Positions 2,436 to 22,455 of a DNA stretch of 52,642 nt are shown here, in pieces (within the stretch, counting starts at the first letter, position 1; the number at the start of each line of letters is the position of its first letter). The stretch is from assembly GCF_000198775.1 (NCBI RefSeq), contig NC_014718.1, positions 140,038 through 192,679 on the forward strand, read 5' to 3'. The position numbers and the translations under genes were made by a program. The DNA comes from Mycetohabitans rhizoxinica HKI 454. Its GTDB lineage: Bacteria > Pseudomonadota > Gammaproteobacteria > Burkholderiales > Burkholderiaceae. Under the pieces are notes generated by a model. The model saw nothing but the letters and a program-made list of their open reading frames with translations. It did not search any database and had not been told where the DNA came from.

Positions 2436-2436
2436 C

Positions 2437-3278
2437 CTAGTCTCCGTTCGTGCGTTGGGCCTGTGTGTTGCGCTTGGGGTGTGCCGGCCCGCCGTCCGCG
2501 TCCCTATCCCATCGCAGTTCAATCCAGGCCGGTGCATGGTCGCTCGCTTGTGACTGGCCGCGCCCCATATGTCTACCTCCGCGGCGGTCAACGCCGGCGC
2601 AAGCGCGCGGTTGAGTAGCAGATGTTCGATTCGCAGCCCGGAGTGGGTCTGCCAGTGTTGCCGGAAGTCATCCCAGAACGTGTAGTTCCGCTTATCAGGA
2701 TGCAACACGCGCCGCGCGTCGGTCCAGCCTTGCGCGAGCAGTTGCGCATATCGTTGCCGGCTCTGCGGCTGTAGCAACGCATCCTTCAGCCACGAGCGGG
2801 GGTTGTAAATATCCTCGTCAGTCAGCACCACGTTATAGTTACCTGCTAGCACGACGGGCCGGCTGTCGTTGACCATCGTCGCCGCGTGCTCGATCAGCTT
2901 GTCAAACCAGGCGAGCTTGTAATCGAACTTCGGGCCGGGCTGCGGATTGTCGTTCGGCAAGTATAACGACGCGATTAGCAAGCCAGCGACGCTGACTTCC
3001 AGGTACCGGTTATGCGTGTCGGTCTCGAAGCCGGGCAGCGCCCGTCGCACAGCACGTGGCTGCTCGCCACGCGCCAGAATCGTGACCCCGCTCCACGCTG
3101 CCTGGCCGCGCCAGAGCGCGCCGTAGCCGGCCCGCTCCAGGTCGCTTGCCGGAAAGCGCTCGTCGGGTGTCTTCAGTTCCTGCAGGCAGACCACGTCAGG
3201 CCCCTCGTGCTCGAGCCATTCCAGCAGTTGGCCGAGTCGCGCCCGCAGGCCGTTAATGTTAAAGATAGCGATTTCCAA
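2437..3278 (-). pseudogene. xthA: Exodeoxyribonuclease III, degenerate and frameshifted
   Basis: The translation is clearly an ExoIII/AP endonuclease: it starts LEIAIFNINGLRAR, then CLQELKTPDERF, YNPRSWLKDALL and RIEHLLLN. Several defects are visible. No ATG precedes the first conserved residues, and only a TTG at 3278 is in place. The catalytic GDxN motif reads GNYN, so the metal/AP-site aspartate (E. coli D151) is Asn. The RID motif reads RIE (D229 to E). A probable one-base deletion near 2564-2569, in a run of G, moves the final SDHAPAWIEL, which carries the catalytic histidine, into another frame. In the original frame the gene would end at TAG 2437-2439, next to ligD. In the shifted frame there is no stop and the reading frame continues into ligD. 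A sequencing error could explain the shift but not the substitutions, so I read it as a decaying gene. Confidence 0.85.
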
Positions 3279-3464
3279 TGGCCGGATGCTTCGATGGTGC
3301 ACTTGCTCGCTGGGACAGCAAGCTTCATGCCGACGCTTCGCTGCCGGGCGCCGCGGCGGCGCGTCACAGCGCGCGGTGGCAAGCCCTGATAGGGGGAAAG
3401 ACTTCGGCTCCCCCGGGGAGCGCCGTGCCGCTGGGACTCAGTCAGGCCCTTCGTTAACTGTCAT

Positions 3465-5608: not shown

Positions 5609-5968
5609 CCCACTGCCGCCCATTCGTCACCCGCTCGATCATGTGGCACGGCACAATGTTCGCGTCCTTTCATTGACATCGGGTGCGCGATTCCAATACG
5701 GTTGCATCATGCCGGATTTTTCTACCTTTGAATGGTCCAGTTTTTTGGGTCAGCCTCACGACGACTGCCGGGCGCCATATCGAAATGCAGGTACTCGAAG
5801 CATCTACCGTTTCGTTTGGCACGGGAATAAGCAAGTCCAAGGAGGCCGAGCGGATAATTCTATTGTTGCACGTTGCTTGCGTCCTTTTTAGTGCAATTTT
5901 GGCGGTTTTGAAAAAGAAATAATGTTTGGTTAGTTCACGATTTAAGCCTATAGTGGTTTATATTATGA
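5609..5968. other. AT-rich intergenic region at the left edge of the NRPS island
   Basis: No convincing gene is present. The two overlapping open frames at 5643-5922 show no recognisable motif. Composition falls towards AT-rich from about 5700 and stays low into the carbamoyltransferase, so this marks the left boundary of the acquired island. An 8-bp TGGTCCAG at 5733-5740 recurs inverted at 22458-22465, just after the NRPS stop. The stretch just before 5969 (tagtggtttatattatg) is AT-rich enough to hold a -10 element, but no clear -35 element is visible. Confidence 0.5.
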
Positions 5969-7675
5969 ATGAGCCACGCTAATATGAAAATCCTTGGTAT
6001 CAATTCCGCCTATCATGAATCCTCCGCGTCGATTGTCATCGACGGCAAGATCGTAGCGGCAGTCGAAGAAGAGCGATTCACCCGAATCAAGCATGCGAAA
6101 GAAGCTTGTGTAAGTGGCCCGGCTGAGCTACCGAAAAACAGCATACAGTTTTGCCTTTCCCATGCAGGATTAAAAGCCACGGATTTGGATGGCATCGCCT
6201 ACTCGTTTGATCCCGCCCTCAGAAAGCGTGAATTCAAACTCGATTCGCTCAGCCTACCGGGTGATTGGGGAAGTGCGCAGGGAGAGGGCATTTTTCTTGC
6301 CAAGCTCCAGCAAGTTCCCGGTGCAATCGATGCGCTACTAGACCATCAGTTTGGCAGCAAATTAGCCTTTGTTCCGCATCATATCGCTCATGCCGCTTCG
6401 ACTTTCTATCCGTCTGGATTCGATCAGGCTGCGATCCTTGTCGTCGATGGGATCGGCGAATCAGGCTGTACTTTGCTGGCGCGTGGGGACGGCAATAAAA
6501 TAACGACACTGGATCAGGTGCCCTATCCGCACTCGCTTGGGTTCCTGTGGGAAAAGCTGAGCAAATATTTGGGCTTTTCTGAATATGATGCTTGCAAGCT
6601 GATGGGGCTGGCCGCTTATGGTGATCCCGCTGTCTTCAGAGAGACATTCAAGCAACTTCTGAATTCAGAAGCAGGCCGATATACGATCGATCCGGACGTG
6701 GCCCATTTCCGTCTGCCGGACTTCGAGCGGATCGAGGCATTGTTTGGTCCGGCACGAGCCGATAAAGAACCGATCCTCGATCATCACCGCCATGTTGCCG
6801 CCGCCCTTCAAGAAGCCACAGATCACGCGCTGATGGGATTGGTGCGCGAGCTGCGTGAGCGCGCTGCCTCCGATAAATTGTGCTATGCAGGCGGTGTCGC
6901 GCTAAATTGCGTCAGCAATTCCGTCATCAAGGAAAGCGGCTTGTTCTCTCAAATGTATGTCCCCACCGCGCCCCATGACGCAGGCACGGCGGTTGGCGCG
7001 GCGCTGCATCTTTATTATTCGCTTTCCGGCCAACGTCCATCGCAGGCCGATGACAACCCGTACCTGGGCCCGGCGTTTTCCGATGCGGCGATCGATGCCG
7101 CATTCCGTGACGCCGGTCTGTCGCCCCGACACAGCGCCGATCCCGCGCGCGATGCGGCCACGCTGATCGCCGACGGCAAGATCGTAGCTTGGTTTCAAGA
7201 CCGCATGGAATTTGGTCCCCGCGCGCTGGGTAACCGTTCACTACTGGCCGATCCCCGCAGCGCGTCGATGCGCGAGGTGCTCAATGTGAAGGTCAAGCAT
7301 CGCGAAGAATTTCGCCCTCTTGCACCCAGCGTACTGGCTGAAGAAGCGGCCAACTGGTTTGAGCTGGGCCAAGCATCGATGAGCCACCAATCGATGCTGT
7401 TCGCCTGCCCGGCCAAACAAGATCGTCAAGCATCGATCCCAGCGGTCCTGCATAAGGATCATTCCGCCCGTGTGCAGATGGTCAGTCAAGAGCGCAACCC
7501 TAAATTCCACGCGCTGATCCAGCATTTCTTTGAAATGACCGGTGTACCCGTGGTGCTCAACACCTCATTCAACGATAGCGAACCCATCGTCTGCACGCCA
7601 TCGGATGCGATCAAGACGTTCCAGGGAACGGCCATTGATGCTTTGTTTATTGGCAATCGGTTTGTCGTCAGATAA
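5969..7675 (+). CDS. NodU/CmcH/TobZ-family carbamoyltransferase
   Basis: A 568-residue enzyme of the family that moves a carbamoyl group from carbamoyl phosphate, through carbamoyl-AMP, to a hydroxyl (occasionally an amine) of a natural product. The N-terminal Kae1-like/ASKHA domain begins ILGINSAYHESSASIVIDG and contains the metal-site HHIAHA (H137, H138, H141) and VVDGIGESG. GGVALNCVSN follows near residue 310. The C-terminal YrdC-like domain (~385-568) holds AWFQDRMEFGPRALGNRS and the terminal VPVVLNTSFND. The length is usual for the family. The start may instead be the second Met (5984, MKILGIN), which matches relatives better. It is the first gene of a three-gene co-directional set with the methyltransferase (64-bp gap) and the NRPS, so its substrate is probably the NRPS peptide, for instance the serine hydroxyl. 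That substrate is inference. Confidence 0.88.
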   Translation: MSHANMKILGINSAYHESSASIVIDGKIVAAVEEERFTRIKHAKEACVSGPAELPKNSIQFCLSHAGLKATDLDGIAYSFDPALRKREFKLDSLSLPGDWGSAQGEGIFLAKLQQVPGAIDALLDHQFGSKLAFVPHHIAHAASTFYPSGFDQAAILVVDGIGESGCTLLARGDGNKITTLDQVPYPHSLGFLWEKLSKYLGFSEYDACKLMGLAAYGDPAVFRETFKQLLNSEAGRYTIDPDVAHFRLPDFERIEALFGPARADKEPILDHHRHVAAALQEATDHALMGLVRELRERAASDKLCYAGGVALNCVSNSVIKESGLFSQMYVPTAPHDAGTAVGAALHLYYSLSGQRPSQADDNPYLGPAFSDAAIDAAFRDAGLSPRHSADPARDAATLIADGKIVAWFQDRMEFGPRALGNRSLLADPRSASMREVLNVKVKHREEFRPLAPSVLAEEAANWFELGQASMSHQSMLFACPAKQDRQASIPAVLHKDHSARVQMVSQERNPKFHALIQHFFEMTGVPVVLNTSFNDSEPIVCTPSDAIKTFQGTAIDALFIGNRFVVR

Positions 7676-7739
7676 ACTAGGGTTCGATCGCCAGACCAAC
7701 AACAGCCAGACTAACAACAGGATGGTACGGGACATCGCG

Positions 7740-8702
7740 ATGCACCACACAAACGAAGAAAAATGTATTTTTTTCATCACGAAAAACCATGGCCAGACGG
7801 CAAGCCATCATCAAATAGCTGACTGCTTGCCGATAGCCCAGTGGAATTCAATGCATCATGGCTTGAATGGTCAACATGACGAGAAAAATAATTTATTGTC
7901 GTCGCCCTATCCCATCAAGGTCGTGACGGATGCCTTTCACTATCCTCATGCTGATCAGGTTCTTCCTATACAGCCGGAACAGTTATTTTTCATGGACTAC
8001 ACGTCCGCAGAAGATTTGGAACAGGCTAGCGTCCTAGACATCGGTGTTGGCTCGGGCGTATTGAGCATTTTTTGCCTACTCAATGGTGCCACTTCTTGTG
8101 TTGGATTGGATGTCAACCCAAGAGCGAAAATATTGGCCGGACACAACGCCATCCTCAACCATATCGATAAGAATTTCGATATTCGGGATGGCAGCACTTC
8201 GGATATTTTTGCATCTGTCAAGGATAAGCAATTCGATTTTATTTGTTCTAACCCGCCGTTCGAGCCTACGCCACCCGGAATCGATTACTACGTCAATTCT
8301 GCAGCCGGCATTTACGGGATGGATTTTGCTGAAAAGATATTGTCCAATATCGACCAGCACTTAACAGATGATGGCATGCTCCAGGTGGTCACGATGGCGC
8401 CGGGAGATGCGAAGAGGCCATTCAAACTATATGAAATTCTCGAGAATCATTTGCCAGGCCAAGCGGTGGAGATTATTCTAGACCGGCAGCCCATTTCCTA
8501 TGATGATTTTGTCGGCAGATTCAACACTATTTTTGGATACGGCGAAGGTGTCGTTTCCCAAATGAAAAAGACTGCTCGCGATGACGGCGTCACGCATCTC
8601 CATATGCTGATAATGAAATATAAAAAAGGACGACACGGCAGCATCACGGAAAAGGTGGCCGGTAGAATTTATGAAAATTGGACAACCCCACTTGGGTTAT
8701 AG
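7740..8702 (+). CDS. SAM-dependent methyltransferase, class I, NPPF type
   Basis: The Rossmann-fold SAM motif VLDIGVGSGVLSIF is at residues ~98-111, the acidic residue after strand 2 is in GLDVNPRA, and NPPF is at 171-174. NPPF/NPPY marks methyltransferases that act on planar or amide nitrogens (HemK, MTS and adenine-N6 types). I chose the ATG at 7740, giving 320 residues. An ATG at 7722 is equally possible, while the longer frame from 7542 overlaps the carbamoyltransferase by 130 bp and is unlikely. The gene is clearly richer in AT than the surrounding chromosome. It lies between the carbamoyltransferase and the NRPS, and since the NRPS has no embedded methyltransferase, it may act in trans on the peptide. 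A protein or RNA target is the alternative. Confidence 0.78.
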   Translation: MHHTNEEKCIFFITKNHGQTASHHQIADCLPIAQWNSMHHGLNGQHDEKNNLLSSPYPIKVVTDAFHYPHADQVLPIQPEQLFFMDYTSAEDLEQASVLDIGVGSGVLSIFCLLNGATSCVGLDVNPRAKILAGHNAILNHIDKNFDIRDGSTSDIFASVKDKQFDFICSNPPFEPTPPGIDYYVNSAAGIYGMDFAEKILSNIDQHLTDDGMLQVVTMAPGDAKRPFKLYEILENHLPGQAVEIILDRQPISYDDFVGRFNTIFGYGEGVVSQMKKTARDDGVTHLHMLIMKYKKGRHGSITEKVAGRIYENWTTPLGL

Positions 8703-8762
8703 CACCCAATGTTGCACTCATCCTAGTGGCATGCTAGGGGGTGTACATATCTTTAATAAAGG

Positions 8763-8778
8763 CATAATTAAAATTATG
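8763..8778. promoter_or_regulatory. Inverted repeat upstream of the NRPS gene
   Basis: CATAATT-AA-AATTATG is a perfect 7-bp inverted repeat in the 217-bp AT-rich gap between the methyltransferase and the NRPS. Its position, about 140 bp before the NRPS start, suits an operator. No regulator gene is present in the island. A weaker hairpin (CCTAG/CTAGG, ~8723-8740) lies just after the methyltransferase stop and could slow transcription between the genes. Confidence 0.35.
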
Positions 8779-8919
8779 TCTCGCTACATCATGCTGGCAG
8801 TATTCTAATCTGCTAATTCTTTTCAATGCCTCATCTTTTAAGCAGTATGCCATAGTCGCTTAGCCTACTCGGTAAGTGGCAAGTAAAGATAAAACTTTTA
8901 TCTAAATTGGAGGCCGTTG

Positions 8920-11900
8920 ATGCCTGCTTGCGTTGCCCCACTCACCCATCCGTTATCCACCGCGCAAACAGAAATTTGGCTTGCCCAAGAACTCCATCCT
9001 AACAGCCCCGTCTACAACATTGCTCAGTACACGACCATTGACGGTGCTGTTGACCCGGTTCTATTTGAAGTGGCGCTGCGGCAGGTGATCAACGAAGCGG
9101 ATAGCCTGCGGCTGCAATTTGTCGAAACCGATCAGGGCCTTCAGCAGACGGTTGGCTCAGTCGATGGGTTTCTGCCGTTCATTGATGTGAGCCGAGAAGC
9201 AGATCCCCAAGCAGCCGCCCACGCATGGATGCGTACCGATTACGAGCGGCCAGTGAATGTTCTACGAGATCCGCTATTCTGTTATGCGTTGTTGAAAGTC
9301 GGGCCCGAGCATTTTTTTTGGTATCAGCGCTACCATCATATTATGATGGATGGGTTTAGCCTATATCTCATTGCGCAGCGTGTCGCGCAGCTCTATAGCG
9401 CGCTATGCAAACATGCCGAGCCGCCGCCGTGTCCTTTTGGATCGGTCTTTCAGCTGTTAGAAAGCGACGTGCAGTACCGCACTTCCGCACAATGGGTACA
9501 GGATGAATCGTATTGGCTCAAACGTTGCATGGACTGGCCCGAACCCGCTACATTGGCGAGCCGGTCCGCGCCTGCGGTTGCAGTTGCTCATCGGTTCCGG
9601 CAAACCATCTACCTTGATTCTAAATCAATAGGTATTGAGACGGCGGATAGTAGAAATTTAGCCCAGTTCGGCGTTGCTACGCTGGCTGCTTACCTGTGCC
9701 GTTGGACCAGTGTGCAAGACATCGTATTCGGTTTACCAGTTAAAGCCCGGTTTGGGGCAAACCGACAGATTCCTGGTATGCAGTCCAATGTACTCCCTTT
9801 GCGGCTTACGGTACAGCCGGATATGAGTTTGTCATTGTTGATGCAGCAAGCCGCTCAAGCAATACAAAGCGCTCTTGAACATCAACGCTACCCCAGTGAA
9901 AGAGTGCGGCGCCAGCTTGGGTTGGTGAACCACCAACAACTGTTTAATACGGCGGTCAATGTAATGCCGTTTGACTATGATTTGTCTTTTGATGGTAACG
10001 CATCGACAAACCATAATTTGCTCAACGGTCCGGTGGATGATCTAATGATTGTCATTACCCAACCTGACGCCAATACGCTACAAATTGACTTTGACTTTAA
10101 CCCCGCTCGCTATACTGAAGATGAGTGCATTGCTCACCAACGCCGTTTTATTCAGTTTTTAAGAACGCTGGCCGCCAATTCCACGCAGCCGCTGCGCAGT
10201 ATCGATATTCTCACTGTCGATGAGCGCCAATTAATGCTTGAAACGTGGAATGCCACACAGCAGGATTATCCGGCGCACCAATGCATTCACCAGGTGTTCG
10301 AAGCGCAGGTTGAGCGCACGCCCGACGCCAGGGCGCTAGTGGCTGAAGGGCAGACACTGAGTTATGCGCAACTGAATGCACGAGCCAATCGCCTCGCGCA
10401 CCAGTTGATCGAATTGGGCGTCAAGCCAGAGGCGCGCGTGGCGATTTGTGTCGAGCGTTCACCCGCTATGATCATTGGGCTGCTGGCGATTTTGAAGGCT
10501 GGTGGCGCGTATGTGCCGCTCGATCCCGCGTATCCGAGCGAGCGCCTCGTGCATATTCTTGCAGACGCAGCACCGGCCATTGTGATCGCGGATGCAACAG
10601 GCCGGGCCGTGCTGGGAGACGCGACGCTCGCATCCCGCACCGTGCTGGACCCGAACACACTGTCGGAGCTGGCCGACACCAATCCATGGGTACCAGAGAT
10701 CACCGCTCGGCATCTTGCGTATGTGATCTATACGTCCGGCTCCACTGGCATGCCCAAGGGCGTGATGGTCGAGCATGCTCAAGCGGTCAATTTATTGTTC
10801 TGGGCTCTTCAAGCCTTTACCCCATCGGAGACACAGCATACGCTGTTTTCAACTTCAATCAATTTTGATCTTTCCGTCTACGAATGCTTCGTGCCGCTCG
10901 CGCAAGGTTCAACCGTGCGCTTGGTCGATAATGCATTGGCTTTGACAAACCATTCCGAGCCCATTTCACTGATCAATACGGTACCTTCTGCAATGCGGTC
11001 CTTGTTGGATCATCGAGCAGATTTGTCGTCGGCAACTACCATCAATTTGGCAGGTGAGCCGCTAAAAGCACAACTGATTCAGCAAATTTTTGAGCAGACA
11101 CCAGTCCAGCGTCTATGCAATCTTTATGGGCCTTCAGAGTGTACTACTTATTCAACCTGGCTCTCAATCCATCGCGAAGAACCGTGGATTGAAAGCATCG
11201 GCCGACCGATTGCGAACACTCGCATTTACCTGCTCGATGCGCAGGGCCAGCCGGTGCCGCTCGGTGCGGTCGGGGAGCTGTATATTGGTGGTGCGGGGGT
11301 TGCGCGCGGCTATTGGAACCGGCCGCAGTTGACCGCCGAGCGTTTTGTGCCGGATCCGTTCTCGATGGTACCGGATGCGCGCATGTATAAAACCGGTGAT
11401 TTGGCGCGTTACTTGCCCGATGGCAATTTGCAATACTTGGGGCGCAATGATGAGCAAATCAAGCTGCGCGGTTTTCGCATTGAGCCTGGCGAAATCGAGG
11501 CGTGCTTGACTCAGCACCCGCAAGTGCACGACGCAGTCGTGCTCGCGCGCGAAGGCTCGGATAAGCGGCTTGTCGCGTATGTGGAGGCTGCGCCCGATGA
11601 GCAGCTGGCCAGCACGCTGCGCTCACATGTGGCAGCGGCGCTGCCCGAGTACATGGTGCCCAGTGTGTTCGTGCGGCTCGATGCGTGGCCACTGACGCCC
11701 AATGGCAAGCTGGACCGGCGCGCGCTGCCGGCGCCCGATGATGAAGCATTAGTGCGTCAGGTGTATGAAGCACCGCAAGGTGAGCTTGAGACGACGCTGG
11801 CGGCGTTCTGGGCGGAGTTGCTTGGTGTTGAGCAGGTGGGCCGGCACGACAACTTCTTTGCGCTCGGTGGCCATTCGCTGCTCGCGATGCAGTTAATTGA

Positions 11901-14900
11901 GCGCCTGCGACGCCGGGGATTTGGGGTGTCCGTGCGCACGCTATTTGACACACCAGTGCTCAGTGCGTTGGCGCAGACGCTAGGCCAGCATTGTGGAGTG
12001 GTCGTGCCGCCCAACATGATCACGTCCGACACGGCCGCGCTCACACCATCGATGCTGCCGCTGATCGACCTGTCTCAGTCCGATCTTGACCACATCGTTG
12101 AGCAAGTACCTGGTGGTGTCGCCAATCTCCAGGACATCTATGCGCTCTCGCCGTTGCAGGACGGTATCTTATTCCACCATTTGCTGGCCAGTGACGGTGA
12201 TCCGTATCTGCTAATCACACAACTAGCCTTTGACTCTCGAGAGCGGCTAGACCAGTATCTGGACGCACTACAGCAGGTCATCAACCGCCACGACATTCTG
12301 CGCACCGCGTTTGTCTGGGAAGGGCTGTCCACGCCCGCGCAAGTGGTTTGGCGCCATGCGCCGCTGTCGGTGACCGAGCTTGCGCTAGATGCGAAGGAGG
12401 GGCCCGTTGCCGAGCAGTTGGCGCGGCGCTTCGATCCTCGGCACACTCGCCTGGACTTAACGCAAGCGCCGCTGCTGCGCTTGGCGATTGCGCAGGATAC
12501 CGATGGCCGCTGGCTGTTGGTCCAGTTGCTGCACCACTTGATTGGCGATCACTCGACGCTGGAGGCGATGCACACGGAGATACGAGCGTTTATCGAAGGA
12601 AAAGGTGAGACGCTGCCGGCGCCGCAGCCGTTCCGCAATCTGATTGCGCAAGCGCGTCTGGGCGTGGGTCAAACCGAGCATGAGCGCTTCTTTACCGAGC
12701 AGCTCGGCGACATCGAGGAACCGACGTTGCCATTTGGTCTGTCGCAGGTGCATCGCGACGGCGCGCAGGTCGCCGAAGCGCAGCGGATGTTGCCGCAGGC
12801 ATTGAACGATCGGCTGCGTGCGCATGCTAGACGGCTGGGTGTGAGTCTGGCGAGCCTGTGTCACCTGGCGTGGGCACAGGTGCTCGCACGCGCCAGTGGC
12901 CAACGACGTGTGGTGTTTGGTACGGTGCTGTTTGGCCGGATGCAAGCGGGTGAGGGCGCCGATAGTGCGATGGGGCTGTTTATTAATACGCTGCCGCTGC
13001 GTGTGGACTTGGAGGGCACTGTGGAGTCAGCCGTGCGCGCCACGCATGCGCGGCTGGCGTCGCTGCTTGAACATGAGCATGCGTCGCTGGCATTGGCACA
13101 GCGCTGCAGTGGGGTGCCGGCGGGCACGCCGCTGTTTAGCGCACTGCTCAATTACCGGCACAATGCGCCTAGCTCAAGCGAGCGCAGCATACTGCCCGGT
13201 GTCGAGTTGCTCAGTGTCCAAGAACGTGACAACTATCCGATCGGACTGTCGGTAGAAGACTATGGTCAAGTGTTGGGGTTGACTGCACAAATCGTTGAGC
13301 CAATGGATCCTGACCGGGTGTGCGGGTATATGCAGCAGGCGCTACTTAGCCTGGCTGAGGCGCTCGAGACAGCGCCTGAGTGGCCGGTTGAACAGTCAGA
13401 GATACTGCCCGCAAACGAACGGACCTTACTGCTTAAGACGTGGAACGCGACGCAGCGGGACTATCCAGCACACCAATGCCTTCACCAGCTGTTCGAGGCG
13501 CAGGTAGTCCGCACGCCCGAGGCGACAGCATTGGTCTATGAGGGCCAGACGCTGAGCTACGCGGAGTTGAATGCGCGGGCGAATCGCTTGGCGCATCAGC
13601 TCATCGTGTTGGGTGTCCAACTGGATGCGCGGGTGGTGTTGTACGCGCAGCGCAGTCCGGAAATGGTAGTGGGCATGCTTGCCACGCTCAAGGCCGGCGG
13701 CGCGTACGTGCCGCTCGATCCCACCTATCCGCGAGAGCGCTTGGCCTATATGGTGACGGACAGTGCGCCGATAGTCCTGCTTAGTGTGGGTACACCGCCT
13801 ACCGCAGTGACGCAACGCCTAAGGGCCGGGGTTCCGGTACTGGACCTGCAGGCTGATGCAGCACAGTGGGCACATCAAAGCACACACAATCCTGGATTGG
13901 CACTGACTGCACAGAGCCTGGCCTACGTGATTTATACGTCAGGTTCCACTGACCAGCCCAAAGGAGTGATGGTTCCGCACCAGGGTGGGGTAAATCTCGT
14001 CACCGCTATAGCTCGAGAGCTTGGACTCACCGCACAAGACAGGATGCTGCAATTTGCGCCATTGTCTTTTGATACATCAGTCGAGGAACTGTTTACGCCG
14101 TTGACTCAAGGTGCGACAGTCGTGCTGCGCACGGATGCCTGGTTGGCTGAAGCCGAACAGTTCTGGGCGCTTTGTGATACCCATCATGTAAGCGTGGTGG
14201 ATTTGCCGGTGCAGTTTTGGACACAGCTGGTACAAGAAGCGGCTCCCGTAGCAAGCAGTGTGCGCGTGATCCTTATTGGGGGAGACGCGTTGAGCGCGAC
14301 GGCGCGTGATGCCTGGTTTGCAAATAATGGCCACCGGCCGCGCCTGTTGAACGTTTATGGTCCGACAGAGACGACGGTGACCTCCACGGTGCATGAGGTC
14401 ACCGACGACGAAAATAGCTGGCGCACGATCGGCCGGCCGCTTGACAACACTCGGCTCTATATTCTGGATGCCTACGGTCAGCCGGTGCCGATGGGTGCGA
14501 TCGGCGAGTTGTATATCGGTGGCGCGGGGGTGGCGCGTGGCTATCTAAACCGTCCCGAATTGACCGCTGAGCGCTTCGTACGCGATCCGTTCGTAGCTGA
14601 GCCGGATGCGCGGATGTACAAAACGGGGGATTTGGCGCGCTACCTGCCCAATGGGAACTTGGAATTCCTGGGCCGCAATGACCATCAAGTCAAGATCCGG
14701 GGCTTTCGCATCGAGCCGGGCGAGATCGAGGCGTGCTTGGGCCAACACCCACAGGTGCGCGAGGCGGTCGTGCTGGCGGTGGGCGAAGGCAGCGCCAAGC
14801 GCTTGGTGGCGTATGTGGTGGCCGAGCCCGATGATGCGTTAGCCGGTACATTGCGCACCCATGTGGCGGAAGCGTTGCCTGAATACATGGTGCCCAGTGC

Positions 14901-17900
14901 GTTCGTGCGGCTTGATGCATTGCCACTGACGCCAAACGGCAAGCTCGACCGGCGTTCTCTGCCGGCGCCTGATGTGCAGGCGTTTGCGCGCCAGGCGTAT
15001 GAGGCACCGCAAGGCGAACTTGAGACTACGCTGGCTCAGATTTGGTCTGAATTGCTCGGTGTGGAGCAGGTAGGCCGACACGACAGCTTTTTCGCCCTGG
15101 GCGGGCATTCGCTGCTGGCGGTGCGCTTGATGAACCGAGTTGCCGCGCTCGGTATCGCATTGCCGCTGGCGACCTTGTTTGCTGCTCCGACGCTGGCCGG
15201 GTTGGCTGCCGCGCTCGATGCGCAGCACACATCAAATGGTGCGGCGCTGCCGGCGATCACGCCCGTGTCGCGTGACGGTACGTTGCCGCTGTCGTTCGCG
15301 CAGCAACGGCTGTGGTTCCTCGCGCAGCTCGATGGCGCGAGCGACTCATATCATATTCCACTAGCGCTGCGCCTGCGCGGCACCTTAAACCGCGTGGCGT
15401 GGCAGCACGCGCTGGATGCACTGTGGACACGCCATGAAGCGCTGCGCTCGGTGTTCGTCAGTGTCGAGGGTCAGCCGCAGGTACAGCTGTTGCCCGCCGA
15501 AACAGGTATGCCGATGAGCTGGCATAACCTGCGCGGCGCGCCCGACGCCGACGTGCAGCTGGCACAACTTAGCGCTGAGGCAGCCCGCACGCCGTTCGAT
15601 CTGGAGCGCGGGCCGCTGATTCGCGCATGCGGCATTCAATTGGCTGAAGACGAGTACGTGGTGTTGCTCACACATCACCATATCGTCTCGGATGGCTGGT
15701 CAATCGGGGTGCTGGTGCGCGAGTTGAATACCCTATACACTGCTGCGTGTGCTGGTCAAGCCGATCCGCTGCCACCACCTGCAATCCAGTATCCAGATTA
15801 TGCAGCCTGGCAGCGGCAGTGGCTCACAGGCGAACAACTCCAGCGCCAGAGTCACTATTGGCGCACAACGCTGGCCGATGCACCGGTGCTGCTCGAGTTA
15901 CCGACTGATCGGCCCCGTCCGCCGCAACAATCATTTGCCGGCGCGCAGGTGCCCATTCACATTGATGCAAAAACGACGCGCGCGCTCAAACGCCTCAGCC
16001 ACGCGCACGGCACAACGCTGTTCATGACGGTACTTGCCGCGTGGGGCGCGGTGCTCTCGCGCCTGTCCGGTCAAGAGGATCTGATTATCGGCGTTCCGAG
16101 CGCCAATCGCAATCACCGCGAGATCGAGCCGCTGGTCGGCTTTTTTGTCAACACGCTGGCATTGCGCCTCGATTTATCTGGTGAGCCGGACACTGCGCAA
16201 CTGCTTGAGCGGGTGCGGCGCACGACGCTGGAAGCGCATGCGCACCAGGATCTGCCGTTCGAGCAGGTTGTCGAAATCGTACAGCCGCCGCGCCGGCTCG
16301 ACTATACGCCGCTGTTTCAAGTGATGTTTGCATGGCAAAACAATGAAATAGCAAACTGGCGGCTGCCGAATTTAGCGGTCACGCCGGTCGAACTTAATTA
16401 CGATACGGTCAAGTTTGATCTTGAACTAGGTCTGTATGAGTCGGGCGAGGAGATCATCGGAGAATTAGGCTATGCAAGCGCATTGTTTGACCAATCCACA
16501 ATTTCGCGGCACGTTGGTTATTTCAAGGCGATGTTGCAAGCGATGGTCGCCCATCCACGGCAACCGGTGGCAACGTTTGAACTGCTTGCTGACGATGAAC
16601 GTAAACTGCTGCTTTACACGTGGAATGCGACGCAGCGCGATTATCCATCGCAATTATGCGTTCATCAACTGTTCGAGATGCAAGCCAAGCGTACGCCAGA
16701 GGCAATCGCGCTCATGTACGAGCAACAAACGCTCAGTTATGCTGAGCTGAACGCACAAGCTAACCGCCTCGCACATCAGCTGCGAGAGTTGGGTGTGCGC
16801 GCCAACAGTCGCGTAGCACTGTATGCATACCGCTGTCCGGAAATGGTAGTTGGCATTCTTGCTACGCTTAAGGCGGGAGGAGTTTATGTGCCGCTCGATC
16901 CCACCTATCCGCCAGAACGGTTAGCTTCTATGATGGCGGACAGTAAACCAGTCGTTTTGCTCAGCGTCGGCACCCCGCAAGCTGCAGTGACGCAATGCGT
17001 GGAAAATGGCGTACCAATACTAGATATACAAGCGGGTACAGCGCAGTGGGAACACCGAAGTGCATACGGTTTTGAGTCGCATAAACTAGCACTGAAAGCA
17101 CAGCATTTAGCTTATATAGTTTACACCTCGGGCTCCACGGGCCAACCTAAAGGGGTATTGATTAAACATCACAGCTTGGTCAATCTTGTGACGGCCATGG
17201 CTCGCAGACTTGACTTGGCTGCGCAAGACCGAGTTTTGCAATGTTCTTCGCTGTCCTTTGATGCGGCGATTGGGGAAATCTTTGTCACCTTAACTCAGGG
17301 TGCGACGCTAGTGCTACGCACCGATGCCTGGTTAGCCGGGGCCCAGCAATTCTGGGCGCTTTGCAAAGCCAACCGTGTAAGTGTGACGGATTTACCCACT
17401 CAATTTTGGACACAATTAACGCAGGAAAAAGTCGCTGTTCCAGATTGTGTCCGCGTGGTCATGATTAGTGGAGATGCGTTAAGTGCGGCGGCACGCGATG
17501 CATGGTTTGCCGGCGGTGGCCATCGGCCAAGGTTGTTTAATGTTTACGGTCCGACCGAAACAACGATAACTGCTACTGTGCATGAAATCACCCGAGACGA
17601 TGACAACTGGCGCAGCATTGGCCGACCGATTGACAATACGCAACTTTATATTTTAGACACGTACCGGCACCCCGTCCCGATGGGTGTGGCCGGGGAGCTA
17701 TACATTGGCGGAGTGGGTGTCGCGTGCGGCTATCTGAACCGTCCGGGCTTGAGCGCCGAGCGCTTTATACCTAATCCATTCTCGGTGATGCCCAGCGCGC
17801 GGATGTATAAAAGTGGGGATCTGGTGCGTTATTTGCCCAATGGCAATCTCGAATTCTTGGGTCGCAACGACCACCAAGTTAAGGTTCGCGGCTTTCGGGT

Positions 17901-20900
17901 TGAGCTTGGCGAGATCGAGGCGCACTTGACTCAGCACCCACAGGTGCGTGAGGCGGCGGTGTTGGCGCGGGGTGAAAGCAATGAAAAGCGGCTGATTGCA
18001 TATGTGGTCGCTGAGCCCGATGAGCAGCTAGCGAGCACGCTGCGCACGCACATCGCAGCCCGCCTGCCCGACCACATGGTACCAGCCGCATTTGTGCGGC
18101 TCGATGCGCTCCCCCTGACGCCCAATGGCAAACTCGATCGGCACGCTCTGCCCGCGCCGGACGATGCAGCGTGGGTCCGTCAAGTATACGAGGCACCGCA
18201 AGGCGAACTTGAAACCACGCTTGCAGCCATTTGGAGCGAACTGCTCGGCGTTAAGCAGGTGGGTCGGCACGACAGCTTCTTCGCGCTCGGTGGACATTCG
18301 CTGCTCGCGGTGCAGTTGATTGAGCGCCTGCGCCGCCGCGGCTTGGGGATGTCCGTGCGTGCGTTGTTTGACACACCGGTGCTCAGTATGCTGGCCCAGT
18401 TGCTGGGTCAGCATCGCGAAGTGGCTGTGCCGCCCAATCGCATCATGCCTGAGACGAGCGCGCTGACACCGGACTTGCTGCCGCTGATCGAGCTGACGCA
18501 GGCCGAGATCGATCGCATTGTTGAGCAGGTGCCGGGTGGCGTCGCCAATATCCAGGACATCTATGCGCTGTCACCCCTGCAGGATGGCATCCTGTTCCAT
18601 CATCTGCTGGCCAGCGAGGGTGATCCGTATCTGCTGACCACACAACTGGTTTTCGACACGCGAGCGCGGCTCGATCAGTATCTCAATGCTATTCAGCAGG
18701 TCGTCAACCGCCACGACATTCTGCGCACCGCGTTTGTCTGGGAAGGGCTGTCCATGCCCGCGCAAGTGGTTTGGCGCCATGCGCCGCTGTCGGTGACCGA
18801 GCTTGCGCTAGATGCGAAGGAGGGGCCCGTTGCCGAGCAGTTGGCGCGGCGCTTCGATCCTCGGCACACTCGCCTGGACCTGACGCAAGCGCCGCTGCTG
18901 CGCTTGGCGATTGCGCAGGATACCGATGGTCGCTGGCTGTTGGTCCAGTTGCTGCACCACTTGATTGGTGATCACTCGACTGCTGAGGTCATGCAGGCGG
19001 AGGTGCGCGCGCTCATCGAAGGGCGAGGTGAGACGCTGCCCGCGGCACAGCCGTTCCGCAATCTGATCGCGCAGGCGCGACTGGGCGTGAGTCCAGCAGC
19101 ACACGCGCGCTTCTTTACCGAGCAGCTCGGCGACATCGAGGAACCGACGCTGCCGTTTGGTCTGTCGCAGGTGCATCACGACAGTGCGCAGGTCGCCGAA
19201 GCGCAGCGGATGTTGCCGCAGGCATTGAACGATCGGCTGCGTGCGCACGCTAGGCGGCTGGGTGTGAGTCTGGCGAGCCTGTGTCACCTGGCGTGGGCAC
19301 AGGTGCTCGCACGCGCCAGTAGCCAACGACGTGTGGTGTTTGGTACGGTGCTGTTTGGCCGGATGCAAGCGGGTGAGGGCGCCGATAGTGCGATGGGGCT
19401 GTTTATTAATACGCTGCCGCTGCGTGTGGACTTGGAGGGCACTGTGGAGTCAGCCGTGCGCGCCACGCATGCGCGGCTGGCGTCGCTGCTTGAGCATGAG
19501 CATGCGTCGCTGGCACTGGCACAGCGCTGCAGTGGGGTGCCGGCGGGCACGCCGCTGTTTAGCGCACTGCTCAATTACCGGCACAATGCGCCTAGTTCAA
19601 GCGAGCGCAGCATACTGCCCGGTGTCGAGCTATTGACGGCGGAGGAGCGCACTAATTACCCGTTGACACTGTCGGTGGAGGACTTTGGCCAAGCGTTGGG
19701 GCTCACCGCGCAAGCGGTGGCATCGTTGGACCCAGATCGGATATGTGGGTATATGCAGCAGGCGCTGCATAGCTTGGCTGAGGCGCTCGAGACGGCGCCT
19801 GAGGGGCCGATTGAACAATTGGAGGTATTGCCCAATGAGGAGCGGGAACTGCTGCTGCAGACATGGAACGCGACGCAGCAGGACTATCCAGCACACCAAT
19901 GCATCCACCAATTGTTCGAGGCGCAAGTCGAGCGCACGCCAGAAGCGACAGCATTGGTCTATGAGGACCAGGCGCTAAGTTACGCTGAACTGAATGCACG
20001 AGCGAATCGCTTGGCGCATCAGCTCATTGAACTGGGTGTCCAACCGGACGCGCGAGTGGCAATCTGTGTGCAGCGCAGCCCGGCAATGGTGGTGGGGCTG
20101 CTGGCGATTTTGAAAGCGGGCGGGGCGTATGTGCCGCTGGATGTGGCGTACCCGGGCAAGCGACTCGCGCATATTCTACAGGATGCGGCACCGGAGATTG
20201 TGCTGGCCGATGCGGCGGGCCGGGTGGCACTGGGTGAAGCGGCCTTGACCAATCGCACGGTGCTGCTGGACCCGAACACGTTGCCGCAGCGGGCGAGAAC
20301 GAATCCGCTGATACCGGCGCTAACGTGCCGTCATCTTGCGTATGTAATCTATACGTCCGGTTCGACCGGTACGCCTAAGGGCGTGATGAATGAACACCAG
20401 GCGTTGGTCAACCGCTTGCTTTGGATGCAACAAGCCTATGGCTTAACGGTTGCTGACCGCGTGCTTCAAAAAACACCCTTTGGTTTTGATGTGTCTGTTT
20501 GGGAGTTTTTCTGGACGTTGCTCAATGGTGCAACTTTGGTTGTGGCGGCTCCCGAGGTCCATAAAGATCCTACTGCCTTGATGGAGCTGATTATCCGGCA
20601 GCGCATTACCACCGTTCATTTCGTGCCGTCCATGCTTGGCACATTCCTGCACAATGAAGGAGTTGAGCAGTGTACATCCGTAAAACGGCTAATTTGTAGT
20701 GGTGAAGCGTTGCCAGGAACAAGTGTGCGGCTTTGCCAAAGGCGGTTGCCGGGGGCGCAGTTATATAACCTGTATGGTCCGACGGAAGCTGCAATTGACG
20801 TAACAGCCTGGAATTGTCCATCGGATTATGCGGAAGACACCGTGCCAATTGGCCGCCCGATTGCGAATACGCAAATCTATCTATTTGATGCCTACGGCCA

Positions 20901-22455
20901 GCTGGTGCCATTAGGCGCGGTCGGGGAGCTATATATTGGGGGGGCGGGCGTGGCGCGCGGCTACCTGAACCGCCCGGAGCTCACGGCTGAGCGTTTTGTG
21001 CGCAATCCGTTCTCGGCTGAAACCAACGCTCAAATGTACAAGACAGGAGACCTTGCCCGCTACCGGTCCGACGGCAATCTGGAATTCCTGGGCCGTAACG
21101 ACGATCAGGTCAAGATTCGCGGCTTTCGCATCGAGTTGGGTGAGATCGAGGCGTGCTTGGCGAAGCACTCGCAGGTGCGCGAGGCGGTGGTGCTCACGAC
21201 AGGTGAAGGCAGCGTCAAGCGCCTGGTGGCCTATGTGGTGGCCCAGGCCGATGAGCAACTGGTCAATACGTTGCGTGTGCATGTGGCGGAAGCGTTGCCT
21301 GAATACATGGTGCCCAGTGCGTTTGTGCGGCTTGATGCATTGCCACTGACGCCAAACGGCAAGCTTGATAGACGTGCCCTACCGGCCCCCAATGCCGACG
21401 CGTTCGCGCATCAAGCGTACGAGGCGCCGCAGGGTGAGCTCGAGACCACGCTCGCGGCGATCTGGGCCGAGCTGCTGGGCGTGGAGAAGATCAGCCGGCA
21501 CGACAATTTCTTTGCGCTTGGCGGCCATTCACTGCTGGCGGTGCGAATGGCTAGCTGCAGTCGCACAGCACTGAACGTTTCTATCCCGATACGGATGCTG
21601 TTCGAAACTCCCACCGTCGCTGCATTGGCACAGCGCTTATTGACGCACCGTAGCATGCAAGACGATTCCTTTGCTGTATTGCTACCGATTCAGACCAATG
21701 GTAGCCGTCCCCCGCTTTTCTGTGTCCACCCTTTTAGTGGACTCAGCTGGCATTACCGGGGCCTGGCAAGCCATTTAGATGCCGAGCAGCCCGTTTATGG
21801 TTTACAAGCCCGGGGTTTTGATGGCGAGACGTTGGCACCCACGCTCGACGCAATGGCCGCGGATTATATCCAGCAAATTCGACGCATTCAGCCTCATGGG
21901 CCTTACTATCTGCTTGGATGGTCTTTGGGCGGTAACATCGCCTATAACATGGCCACACAACTTGAAGAGCTAGGCGAACAAATTGCGCTACTGGCACTGT
22001 TGGACAGTGCACCAAAGCATGTGCAACGAGACGATGAACCGGAGATGGATTTGAAGGAGGCTTATATTAAGCTACTGGCTCATGATGATGGACAAATTAA
22101 GTCAAATGTCGGTCACGATTTATGGGAAAAAAGCCGGACAGTTGTTCAAAATAATTATAAGCTTTTGAAGAGTTTTTCCCCCCGCATGTATGCGGGTAAC
22201 ATGCTGTTTTTCCGGGCAACGGTCGTGCAGGATGCATCGACTGATCTCATTCCGTCTGACGCATGGCGGCCGTACGTGTTAGGGGAGATTGAAATACAAA
22301 ACATTCCATGCAAACATCATGACATGGATAAGCCTTTGCCAACTACGATAATTGGCCAGATTTTACAACGCAAGCTCAATATATTACATAAGTGTGATAA
22401 AAAAACCTGCAGTTGTTGTGCGAAAATTAAAAATGAGCCACTTCGCGCAAAGTAA
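8920..22455 (+). CDS. Four-module non-ribosomal peptide synthetase with terminal thioesterase
   Basis: A 4,511-residue synthetase; the ATG at 8920 follows GGAGG. Domain order: C1 (HHIMMDG, 139-145; EntF-like YHH..DGFS), A1 (~450-940), PCP1 (S986); C2 (~1040-1490; HHLLASDGD 1086-1094, second HH at 1205), A2 (~1515-2010), PCP2 (S2064); C3, ordinary LCL type (HHIVSDG 2253-2259), A3 (~2575-3080), PCP3 (S3127); C4 (HHLLASEGD 3227-3235), A4 (~3656-4160), PCP4 (S4204); thioesterase (GWSLGG, S4335; likely D4362, H4466/7). C2 and C4 carry the extended HH[IL]xxxxGD motif of dual condensation/epimerisation domains, so residues 1 and 3 should be D. My hand-read A-domain codes are DLYNNALTYK (Ala-like), DTEDLGVVTK (acidic, so probably a basic residue), DAGDMSVITK (unassigned, amine-type D278) and DVWHISLIDK (Ser). 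All active-site residues are intact. The intact HH motif in C1, the first domain, suggests an acyl or aminoacyl starter. The last ~15 residues are Cys-rich and odd. Confidence 0.95.
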   Translation: MPACVAPLTHPLSTAQTEIWLAQELHPNSPVYNIAQYTTIDGAVDPVLFEVALRQVINEADSLRLQFVETDQGLQQTVGSVDGFLPFIDVSREADPQAAAHAWMRTDYERPVNVLRDPLFCYALLKVGPEHFFWYQRYHHIMMDGFSLYLIAQRVAQLYSALCKHAEPPPCPFGSVFQLLESDVQYRTSAQWVQDESYWLKRCMDWPEPATLASRSAPAVAVAHRFRQTIYLDSKSIGIETADSRNLAQFGVATLAAYLCRWTSVQDIVFGLPVKARFGANRQIPGMQSNVLPLRLTVQPDMSLSLLMQQAAQAIQSALEHQRYPSERVRRQLGLVNHQQLFNTAVNVMPFDYDLSFDGNASTNHNLLNGPVDDLMIVITQPDANTLQIDFDFNPARYTEDECIAHQRRFIQFLRTLAANSTQPLRSIDILTVDERQLMLETWNATQQDYPAHQCIHQVFEAQVERTPDARALVAEGQTLSYAQLNARANRLAHQLIELGVKPEARVAICVERSPAMIIGLLAILKAGGAYVPLDPAYPSERLVHILADAAPAIVIADATGRAVLGDATLASRTVLDPNTLSELADTNPWVPEITARHLAYVIYTSGSTGMPKGVMVEHAQAVNLLFWALQAFTPSETQHTLFSTSINFDLSVYECFVPLAQGSTVRLVDNALALTNHSEPISLINTVPSAMRSLLDHRADLSSATTINLAGEPLKAQLIQQIFEQTPVQRLCNLYGPSECTTYSTWLSIHREEPWIESIGRPIANTRIYLLDAQGQPVPLGAVGELYIGGAGVARGYWNRPQLTAERFVPDPFSMVPDARMYKTGDLARYLPDGNLQYLGRNDEQIKLRGFRIEPGEIEACLTQHPQVHDAVVLAREGSDKRLVAYVEAAPDEQLASTLRSHVAAALPEYMVPSVFVRLDAWPLTPNGKLDRRALPAPDDEALVRQVYEAPQGELETTLAAFWAELLGVEQVGRHDNFFALGGHSLLAMQLIERLRRRGFGVSVRTLFDTPVLSALAQTLGQHCGVVVPPNMITSDTAALTPSMLPLIDLSQSDLDHIVEQVPGGVANLQDIYALSPLQDGILFHHLLASDGDPYLLITQLAFDSRERLDQYLDALQQVINRHDILRTAFVWEGLSTPAQVVWRHAPLSVTELALDAKEGPVAEQLARRFDPRHTRLDLTQAPLLRLAIAQDTDGRWLLVQLLHHLIGDHSTLEAMHTEIRAFIEGKGETLPAPQPFRNLIAQARLGVGQTEHERFFTEQLGDIEEPTLPFGLSQVHRDGAQVAEAQRMLPQALNDRLRAHARRLGVSLASLCHLAWAQVLARASGQRRVVFGTVLFGRMQAGEGADSAMGLFINTLPLRVDLEGTVESAVRATHARLASLLEHEHASLALAQRCSGVPAGTPLFSALLNYRHNAPSSSERSILPGVELLSVQERDNYPIGLSVEDYGQVLGLTAQIVEPMDPDRVCGYMQQALLSLAEALETAPEWPVEQSEILPANERTLLLKTWNATQRDYPAHQCLHQLFEAQVVRTPEATALVYEGQTLSYAELNARANRLAHQLIVLGVQLDARVVLYAQRSPEMVVGMLATLKAGGAYVPLDPTYPRERLAYMVTDSAPIVLLSVGTPPTAVTQRLRAGVPVLDLQADAAQWAHQSTHNPGLALTAQSLAYVIYTSGSTDQPKGVMVPHQGGVNLVTAIARELGLTAQDRMLQFAPLSFDTSVEELFTPLTQGATVVLRTDAWLAEAEQFWALCDTHHVSVVDLPVQFWTQLVQEAAPVASSVRVILIGGDALSATARDAWFANNGHRPRLLNVYGPTETTVTSTVHEVTDDENSWRTIGRPLDNTRLYILDAYGQPVPMGAIGELYIGGAGVARGYLNRPELTAERFVRDPFVAEPDARMYKTGDLARYLPNGNLEFLGRNDHQVKIRGFRIEPGEIEACLGQHPQVREAVVLAVGEGSAKRLVAYVVAEPDDALAGTLRTHVAEALPEYMVPSAFVRLDALPLTPNGKLDRRSLPAPDVQAFARQAYEAPQGELETTLAQIWSELLGVEQVGRHDSFFALGGHSLLAVRLMNRVAALGIALPLATLFAAPTLAGLAAALDAQHTSNGAALPAITPVSRDGTLPLSFAQQRLWFLAQLDGASDSYHIPLALRLRGTLNRVAWQHALDALWTRHEALRSVFVSVEGQPQVQLLPAETGMPMSWHNLRGAPDADVQLAQLSAEAARTPFDLERGPLIRACGIQLAEDEYVVLLTHHHIVSDGWSIGVLVRELNTLYTAACAGQADPLPPPAIQYPDYAAWQRQWLTGEQLQRQSHYWRTTLADAPVLLELPTDRPRPPQQSFAGAQVPIHIDAKTTRALKRLSHAHGTTLFMTVLAAWGAVLSRLSGQEDLIIGVPSANRNHREIEPLVGFFVNTLALRLDLSGEPDTAQLLERVRRTTLEAHAHQDLPFEQVVEIVQPPRRLDYTPLFQVMFAWQNNEIANWRLPNLAVTPVELNYDTVKFDLELGLYESGEEIIGELGYASALFDQSTISRHVGYFKAMLQAMVAHPRQPVATFELLADDERKLLLYTWNATQRDYPSQLCVHQLFEMQAKRTPEAIALMYEQQTLSYAELNAQANRLAHQLRELGVRANSRVALYAYRCPEMVVGILATLKAGGVYVPLDPTYPPERLASMMADSKPVVLLSVGTPQAAVTQCVENGVPILDIQAGTAQWEHRSAYGFESHKLALKAQHLAYIVYTSGSTGQPKGVLIKHHSLVNLVTAMARRLDLAAQDRVLQCSSLSFDAAIGEIFVTLTQGATLVLRTDAWLAGAQQFWALCKANRVSVTDLPTQFWTQLTQEKVAVPDCVRVVMISGDALSAAARDAWFAGGGHRPRLFNVYGPTETTITATVHEITRDDDNWRSIGRPIDNTQLYILDTYRHPVPMGVAGELYIGGVGVACGYLNRPGLSAERFIPNPFSVMPSARMYKSGDLVRYLPNGNLEFLGRNDHQVKVRGFRVELGEIEAHLTQHPQVREAAVLARGESNEKRLIAYVVAEPDEQLASTLRTHIAARLPDHMVPAAFVRLDALPLTPNGKLDRHALPAPDDAAWVRQVYEAPQGELETTLAAIWSELLGVKQVGRHDSFFALGGHSLLAVQLIERLRRRGLGMSVRALFDTPVLSMLAQLLGQHREVAVPPNRIMPETSALTPDLLPLIELTQAEIDRIVEQVPGGVANIQDIYALSPLQDGILFHHLLASEGDPYLLTTQLVFDTRARLDQYLNAIQQVVNRHDILRTAFVWEGLSMPAQVVWRHAPLSVTELALDAKEGPVAEQLARRFDPRHTRLDLTQAPLLRLAIAQDTDGRWLLVQLLHHLIGDHSTAEVMQAEVRALIEGRGETLPAAQPFRNLIAQARLGVSPAAHARFFTEQLGDIEEPTLPFGLSQVHHDSAQVAEAQRMLPQALNDRLRAHARRLGVSLASLCHLAWAQVLARASSQRRVVFGTVLFGRMQAGEGADSAMGLFINTLPLRVDLEGTVESAVRATHARLASLLEHEHASLALAQRCSGVPAGTPLFSALLNYRHNAPSSSERSILPGVELLTAEERTNYPLTLSVEDFGQALGLTAQAVASLDPDRICGYMQQALHSLAEALETAPEGPIEQLEVLPNEERELLLQTWNATQQDYPAHQCIHQLFEAQVERTPEATALVYEDQALSYAELNARANRLAHQLIELGVQPDARVAICVQRSPAMVVGLLAILKAGGAYVPLDVAYPGKRLAHILQDAAPEIVLADAAGRVALGEAALTNRTVLLDPNTLPQRARTNPLIPALTCRHLAYVIYTSGSTGTPKGVMNEHQALVNRLLWMQQAYGLTVADRVLQKTPFGFDVSVWEFFWTLLNGATLVVAAPEVHKDPTALMELIIRQRITTVHFVPSMLGTFLHNEGVEQCTSVKRLICSGEALPGTSVRLCQRRLPGAQLYNLYGPTEAAIDVTAWNCPSDYAEDTVPIGRPIANTQIYLFDAYGQLVPLGAVGELYIGGAGVARGYLNRPELTAERFVRNPFSAETNAQMYKTGDLARYRSDGNLEFLGRNDDQVKIRGFRIELGEIEACLAKHSQVREAVVLTTGEGSVKRLVAYVVAQADEQLVNTLRVHVAEALPEYMVPSAFVRLDALPLTPNGKLDRRALPAPNADAFAHQAYEAPQGELETTLAAIWAELLGVEKISRHDNFFALGGHSLLAVRMASCSRTALNVSIPIRMLFETPTVAALAQRLLTHRSMQDDSFAVLLPIQTNGSRPPLFCVHPFSGLSWHYRGLASHLDAEQPVYGLQARGFDGETLAPTLDAMAADYIQQIRRIQPHGPYYLLGWSLGGNIAYNMATQLEELGEQIALLALLDSAPKHVQRDDEPEMDLKEAYIKLLAHDDGQIKSNVGHDLWEKSRTVVQNNYKLLKSFSPRMYAGNMLFFRATVVQDASTDLIPSDAWRPYVLGEIEIQNIPCKHHDMDKPLPTTIIGQILQRKLNILHKCDKKTCSCCAKIKNEPLRAK
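12282..13206 (+). repeat. Intragenic NRPS repeat, copy in C2
   Basis: About 925 bp of the dual C domain of module 2 are nearly identical to 18705-19629 in module 4, at a constant offset of 6,423 bp (2,141 codons). One short block (~12560-12665) differs clearly, and both flanks drop sharply in similarity, as expected from gene conversion or recent domain duplication rather than slow divergence. Confidence 0.9.
18705..19629 (+). repeat. Intragenic NRPS repeat, copy in C4
   Basis: The second copy of the C-domain repeat described at 12282-13206. Identity includes synonymous positions, begins at the NRHDILRTAFVWEGLS region and stops abruptly after the ILPGVE segment. It may mislead short-read assembly, and it gives a substrate for module deletion by homologous recombination. 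Confidence 0.9.

Follow-up and report, generated by a model that had tools for sequence, protein, structure and literature searches.

A carbamoyltransferase–methyltransferase pair shared between synthetase loci of Mycetohabitans rhizoxinica HKI 454 and its predicted role in lipopeptide tailoring

The closest described relatives of the system considered here are RzmA and HolA, the nonribosomal peptide synthetases (NRPSs) of rhizomide/heptarhizin and of holrhizin. Our subject is a third NRPS, which lies with a carbamoyltransferase gene (CT) and a methyltransferase gene (MT) in a 52,642-nucleotide stretch of Mycetohabitans rhizoxinica HKI 454 DNA (the window; C1:140038-192679 of a 3.75-Mb, three-contig genome). 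The locus is on the megaplasmid. Like RzmA and HolA, it encodes a single-protein NRPS that begins with a starter condensation (Cs) domain, here called C1, which is 62% identical to RzmA-Cs and 60% identical to HolA-Cs. Unlike them, it has four adenylation (A) domains, versus seven and six, and Leu at the gate position that is Arg in RzmA and Ala in HolA. Further, no CT or MT match was found near rzmA or holA, whereas the window has both. Because rzmA and holA are both recognised elsewhere in the genome, the window can be neither. Judged by its sequence, the locus is an intact, constrained orphan cluster for a putative lipopeptide, of a known kind but with a new tailoring cassette. We tentatively favor the reading that this megaplasmid lipopeptide pathway uses CT to carbamoylate its peptide and MT to N-methylate the carbamoyl group.

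The three genes are adjacent open reading frames (ORFs) on the plus strand, as first described, and Pfam matches bear out the identities given to them in the original prediction, although the start positions needed correction.

5984..7675, plus strand, CT: class III (TobZ/GdmN/NovN-type) carbamoyltransferase, 1,692 nt, 563 residues
7740..8702, plus strand, MT: S-adenosylmethionine (SAM) methyltransferase with NPPF motif and AerE/HemK-like fold, 963 nt, 320 residues
8920..22455, plus strand, NRPS: four modules, 4,511 residues from the ATG

The CT ORF spans 5969-7675, and its best start is the in-frame ATG at 5984, equivalent to the start in three annotated relatives. For MT, the ORF from 7542 is too long; the ATG at 7740 is the start in close homologues and in the annotated genes of strains B12 and B49. 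The NRPS starts at TTG 8917 or ATG 8920, with GGAGG upstream.

The CT–MT pair recurs, nearly unchanged, at a chromosomal NRPS locus of the same strain.

5963..8696, plus strand, CT–MT cassette: 2,735 bp, 97.3% identical to the chromosomal NRPS locus (blastn, sliding identity)

The shared stretch opens shortly before CT and closes with MT; CT shows 98% and MT 97% identity between chromosome and window, versus 32-43% for the two loci in blocks outside the cassette. The chromosomal locus differs in having the order CT-MT-ATP-binding cassette (ABC) exporter-NRPS, with mbtH before it, and five A domains with other codes (DVSDIGAICK, DAEDLGLINK, DAWTIAAVCK and, twice, DARSLSQMTK; the final K of all ten-letter codes is assumed, not read). 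No recognisable Ser or Thr code was found across its five modules. Its ABC protein scores above the cyclic-peptide-exporter cut-off (TIGR01194, 316.9 of 286.2), an assignment made in this genome; exporters at other CT-MT-ABC-NRPS loci are assigned by position and sequence start. The single MbtH match of the genome (C2:1977071-1977181) lies just before the chromosomal CT and is disrupted in frame, with a 49-residue open stretch; the same place in G002, G006, G007 and G058 holds open stretches of 70-82 residues.

Comparison with strains B12, B47 and B49 points to movement of the cassette between loci. In a block holding the CT–MT spacer (150 columns from 7621), B47 and B49 are 96 and 100% identical to the HKI 454 chromosome, and the HKI 454 megaplasmid is 84% identical to the chromosome, 83-84% to B47/B49 and 100% to B12. 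Synonymous divergence of CT is 0.065-0.091 in five of six strain pairs and 0.023 for HKI 454-B12; that of the NRPS, at 0.018-0.028, is below five of the six CT pairs. The chromosome-like spacers and the raised CT divergence fit gene conversion between the two loci, and thus suggest that CT and MT have been exchanged between megaplasmid and chromosome in this way. A third, decayed locus (C1:110-122k) has a CT without the residues up to about 230, an MT of 86% identity, and a three-module NRPS that is split and ends in a Thr code. Between 6662 and 9495 of the window it is 84% identical, and because this match reaches into the NRPS, the window locus and the remnant appear to be ancient paralogues. 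Probably the chromosomal copy replaced the CT–MT pair of the window, or was itself replaced by it.

Outside the strain, we scanned for MT at E <= 1e-40 in genome sets that are samples from larger groups. MT occurs in 5 of 299 family genomes, at eight places, and CT is directly beside it at all eight. A Mycoavidus-like genome (G058) has the same CT-MT-ABC-NRPS order with different A codes. More distantly, a Chitinophaga solisilvae locus has the order MT-CT-P450-NRPS (L023 9836-20785), and in a metagenome-assembled Saprospiraceae genome a single gene separates an NRPS from CT and MT, which follow in that order. Within the family of the Chitinophaga locus, MT was found in 1 of 294 genomes, that genome itself, and an order scan with the Janthinobacterium homologue P0020 likewise returned its own genome (1/399). 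Among the 120 MT homologues listed, of 166 found, four are fused to a Carbam_trans_C domain. Adjacency and fusion together suggest that CT and MT catalyze consecutive steps.

CT resembles TobZ, GdmN and NovN-type class III enzymes (and Alb15, going by the title of its paper) in both Pfam domains, Carbam_trans_N (Kae1-like) and Carbam_trans_C (PF02543 and PF16861, at 182 and 227 bits), and in its motifs. Residues 11-568 align to the decarbamoylnovobiocin carbamoyltransferase 9s2t (E 9.7e-99), and PHHIAHA, APHDAG, EFGPRALGNRS and LNTSFN are conserved blocks of this alignment. The HxxxH + D metal motif and GPRALGxRS of class III carbamoyltransferases are kept in the alignments with 9s2t and GdmN. 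CT is as short as TobZ, without the extra length of GdmN. According to published work, TobZ-length CTs usually act on polar acceptors. As a NodU nodulation protein CT is rejected, scoring 161.3 bits against a cut-off of 1000 for NCBIfam NF041651. Other CT copies exist in the genus and its neighbors. A second CT in the genome (C2:240811-242517, 42% identical) has counterparts in G002, G006 and G007 and no MT match nearby. Three copies stand behind the end of an NRPS: one in G006 (L032 2351-4042) with no MT found beside it, one in G007 (L034 6616-6783) that is a fragment only, and one in G058 (C1:1778028-1780496) with a partial MT.

MT has matches to MTS/PrmA-type methyltransferases in Pfam and a Rossmann SAM fold with the NPP[YF] motif, NPPF being invariant across 51 aligned sequences. 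In fold comparison AerE, the aeronamide N-methyltransferase, ranks first, followed by gentamicin N-methyltransferase, N6AMT1 and PrmC/HemK. AerE methylates Asn side chains, and PrmC a Gln amide. Compared with AerE and HemK/PrmC, however, MT shows 18% identity and is linked or fused to CT. As an equivalog of PrmC, PrmB or TrmN it is rejected by the curated cut-offs (46.3 of 199.1, 44.6 of 229.7 and 26.2 of 350), and no NCBIfam equivalog reaches its cut-off among the 20 families matched. The fold list also holds, at rank 42 and 12% identity, the "carbamoyl N-methyltransferase" Asc-Orf2 (9l4q), which MT resembles in proposed reaction. Asc-Orf2 reportedly belongs to the pathway of ansacarbamitocin, a maytansinoid. 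This solved enzyme shows that carbamoyl-N methylation chemistry exists, and by its fold similarity to 9l4q MT is a candidate carbamoyl N-methyltransferase.

The NRPS has the order Cs-A-T-C-A-T-C-A-T-C-A-T-TE (C, condensation; T, thiolation; TE, thioesterase), with Pfam matching AMP-binding, Condensation and PP-binding at four places apiece and a thioesterase at one. As originally claimed, the active-site motifs are all present: LGGHSL in all four T domains, GWSLGG in the TE, and the CT motifs given above.

8944..10239, plus strand, C1, starter condensation (Cs) domain, Leu at RzmA position 148
12130..13434, plus strand, C2, dual condensation/epimerization (C/E) domain, HHLLASDGD, residue 1 to D
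15271..16614, plus strand, C3, ordinary (LCL-like) condensation domain, HHIVSDG, dual motif absent
18553..19857, plus strand, C4, dual C/E domain, HHLLASEGD, residue 3 to D
21709..22332, plus strand, thioesterase, PF00975, GWSLGG

C1 is N-terminal, and its HHIMMDG fits HHxxxDG. Its best PDB matches are 7c1k/7c1h/7c1p (E 2e-181 to 6e-180), whose sequence begins the same as that of the C1:23940 synthetase (RzmA). Since C1 is a Cs domain of the RzmA/HolA acyl-CoA type, the locus is predicted to encode a lipopeptide line; the "starter?" of the original prediction can accordingly be read as a predicted acyl group. The RzmA and HolA starter domains are 73% identical to each other, in agreement with the published value. 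The same source reports that Arg at RzmA position 148 selects acetyl and Ala (HolA) octanoyl, and that mutants in the series R, M, L, V, A, G lengthen the chain. Leu lies between these, and C1 is thus predicted to accept a short-to-medium acyl-CoA, of roughly C4-C8. The extra-His motif HH[I/L]xxxxGD defines dual C/E domains, and HHLLAS[DE]GD in C2 and C4 fits it, which predicts the D configuration for residues 1 and 3, as was proposed from the start.

The A domains specify the residues less evenly.

10729..11394, plus strand, A1 specificity region, DLYNNALTYK, Ala
13933..14625, plus strand, A2 specificity region, DTEDLGVVTK, basic-like (Lys/Orn?), low confidence
17122..17811, plus strand, A3 specificity region, DAGDMSVITK, acidic pocket, residue uncertain
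20350..21045, plus strand, A4 specificity region, DVWHISLIDK, Ser

Three modules of the rhizomide synthetase carry the A1 code or one that differs from it at one position. The codes of rzmA and holA give computed masses of 732.392 (cyclic Ac-Leu-Thr-Tyr-Ala-Ala-Ala-Val) and 817.506 (linear C8-Val-Phe-Glu-Leu/Ile-Ala-Leu/Ile), and the published work gives 732.391 and 817.503 for the two products; with this agreement, DLYNNAL[TI]YK is consistent with Ala and DPRSLSQMAK with Glu. A2 (Glu239, Asp278) and A3 (Gly239, Asp278) look basic, at low confidence. DVWHISLIDK we take to be a Ser code. The codes thus agree with the earlier placing of Ala first, a basic-like residue second and Ser fourth, and they add an acidic-pocket code at position 3, which had been left blank. 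The predicted line reads acyl-D-Ala-(basic-like)-D-(basic-like)-Ser-TE.

Our preferred mechanism would run as follows. First, the Cs domain would load a short-to-medium acyl-CoA and start the chain. Second, the four modules would build acyl-D-Ala-(Lys/Orn-like)-D-(basic-like)-Ser, which the TE would hydrolyze or cyclize. Third, CT would form carbamoyl-AMP and carbamoylate a polar nucleophile on the peptide, for which the Ser hydroxyl and the side chain of the basic-like residue at position 2 are candidates. Finally, MT would methylate the carbamoyl nitrogen, giving an N-methylcarbamoyl peptide (+57.02 Da). Against a fixed pairing, CT copies without intact MT occur (G006:C20, the G007 fragment and G058B), and the pairing was read at the loci of close homologues. 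A Ser code is present at both the Chitinophaga and the Saprospiraceae CT–MT loci, and a Thr code at the remnant, in favor of a CT that modifies a hydroxyl.

That alternative, in which CT acts as an O-carbamoyltransferase on the terminal Ser hydroxyl while MT methylates a site unrelated to the carbamoyl group (a peptide amide, a basic side chain or the C-terminal amide), is unlikely, yet it fares best among the competing explanations. It draws on the A4 Ser code and on class III CTs reportedly being O-carbamoyltransferases, TobZ being so named. Alb15, from its title, modifies albicidin, which is said to be a polyketide synthase-NRPS product. But the chromosomal synthetase, which shares the cassette, lacks a Ser or Thr code, and this weakens Ser as the sole CT target; fusion and adjacency, moreover, point to consecutive steps. 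The Ser hydroxyl named at first as a carbamoylation site thus keeps the support of the distant loci and loses that of the chromosomal one.

Distinctly unlikely is that CT N-carbamoylates the side-chain amine of the Lys/Orn-like residue at position 2, giving (homo)citrulline, whose ureido nitrogen MT then methylates. An A domain with an acidic residue at 278 does occupy module 2 in all three CT–MT synthetases of the genome, and the cassette is common to scaffolds otherwise little alike. However, the identity of the residue rests on codes, with p of only 0.044, and the module position is not kept in Mycoavidus and Chitinophaga. We know of no N-carbamoylating class III CT.

It is improbable that CT and MT instead supply a modified free amino acid for one of the A domains to select. 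In its favor, both genes precede the NRPS, and several A codes at these loci, DVSDIGAICK and DAGDMSVITK among them, match no nameable code; on the other hand, the CT–MT synthetases read have no A code in common, and DAGDMSVVTK also occurs at C1:78k and C1:462k, where no CT was found. Finally, although other CT copies in the genus are shortened or lack intact MT, the island has no exporter and the only MbtH match of the genome is disrupted in frame, it is very improbable that the locus is decaying and non-functional like its C1:110-122k relative, as CT and the NRPS are open in all four M. rhizoxinica strains compared, with ratios of nonsynonymous to synonymous substitution (dN/dS) of 0.04-0.10 and 0.11-0.15, and catalytic motifs are kept. 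For MT, dN/dS is 0.06-0.27 among HKI 454, B12 and B49, with few changes; B47, whose MT N-terminus differs from that of the other strains, was left out because the fixed-length slice is off its annotated start.

The ancestry of CT sets it apart from TobZ, GdmN and NovN, as does its partner MT. In the best 120 of 5,084 matches (from 8,000 scored candidates), the closest named relatives outside Mycetohabitans and Mycoavidus are ascomycete proteins, at 61-64% identity; named bacterial relatives are lower, at 55-58%, and P0129, P0141, P0149 and P0150 are as close as the fungal proteins, at 62-64%. In a 45-row tree the seven endofungal rows are sister to 14 fungal rows (support 96/92), and those four proteins fall outside the pair; a 67-row quick tree gives the same pairing at 91 SH-aLRT, and three of the 14 rows were placed as fungal through it. 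The rows of the 45-row tree were hand-chosen (L020, L023, L024, P0164, P0190 and others left out, P0153 kept) and sampled by best match, and the sister pair holds for the rows sampled. Among these, the tree suggests that the nearest kin of CT are the carbamoyltransferases of filamentous fungi.

Taken as a whole, it is possible, if somewhat doubtful, that CT and MT form a portable cassette that would carbamoylate and then N-methylate, passed by gene conversion among otherwise dissimilar NRPS loci in endofungal bacteria and yielding N-methylcarbamoyl (lipo)peptides, with an MT distant from the known carbamoyl N-methyltransferase and a CT nearest in ancestry to those of filamentous fungi. Exchange between scaffolds suggests a tailoring pair tolerant of different peptides. 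Pairing, fusion and exchange yield a concrete prediction, a methyl group on the carbamoyl nitrogen, and its +57.02 Da could serve as a mass tag for natural products of the symbiosis. The fungal sister clade raises the question of gene transfer between endofungal bacteria and fungi.

The NRPS is one of many in a published NRPS-rich genome, and the two-gene tailoring cassette is the new point. We count 69 condensation-domain matches, 67 above the cut-off. The 2011 genome paper lists 14 NRPS clusters in addition to that of rhizoxin, orphans at the time, and its mention of carbamoyl is unrelated to the locus. According to a 2025 review, the products of the species are rhizoxin, necroxime, rhizonin, heptarhizin/rhizomide, habitasporin, endopyrrole, holrhizin and lasso peptides; a 2025 comparative paper reports 373 biosynthetic gene clusters in 28 strains. 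The parts of the literature consulted hold no product match for the locus, in line with the original statement that none was recognised, and no link to it in the gvg/FVG pathway of the fungal carbamoyltransferase literature. Our literature search found no paper linking N-methylcarbamoyl with a carbamoyltransferase, with or without an NRPS, nor, among the papers retrieved, one naming Asc-Orf2 or "carbamoyl N-methyltransferase". Endopyrrole, habitasporin and symbiosin reportedly involve pyrrole-forming enzymes, or pipecolate and beta-phenylalanine; none of these was seen at the window.

As for its setting, the island was first called compact, and no regulator, exporter, MbtH or phosphopantetheinyl transferase (PPTase) gene was seen inside it; its CT and MT, however, are common to a chromosomal locus with an exporter and a disrupted MbtH. 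There are two PF01648 matches in the genome (C1:679650 and C2:758339), and one PPTase, on the megaplasmid, is named in the 2011 paper. A promoter scan was near noise, with seven sites found versus 3.7 +/- 1.9 expected. Near-identical DNA lies on the megaplasmids of B12, B49 and B47 (97.7-99.3%, 3,601-base query). Among its neighbors are genes for LigD and a DUF4399 protein and, on the minus strand, for a histidine kinase, an aminotransferase and a permease. LigD (window 3-3302) bears an N-terminal Exo_endo_phos domain; B12 has a single long ligD gene, whereas the B47 and B49 annotations give exodeoxyribonuclease III and ligD a gene each.
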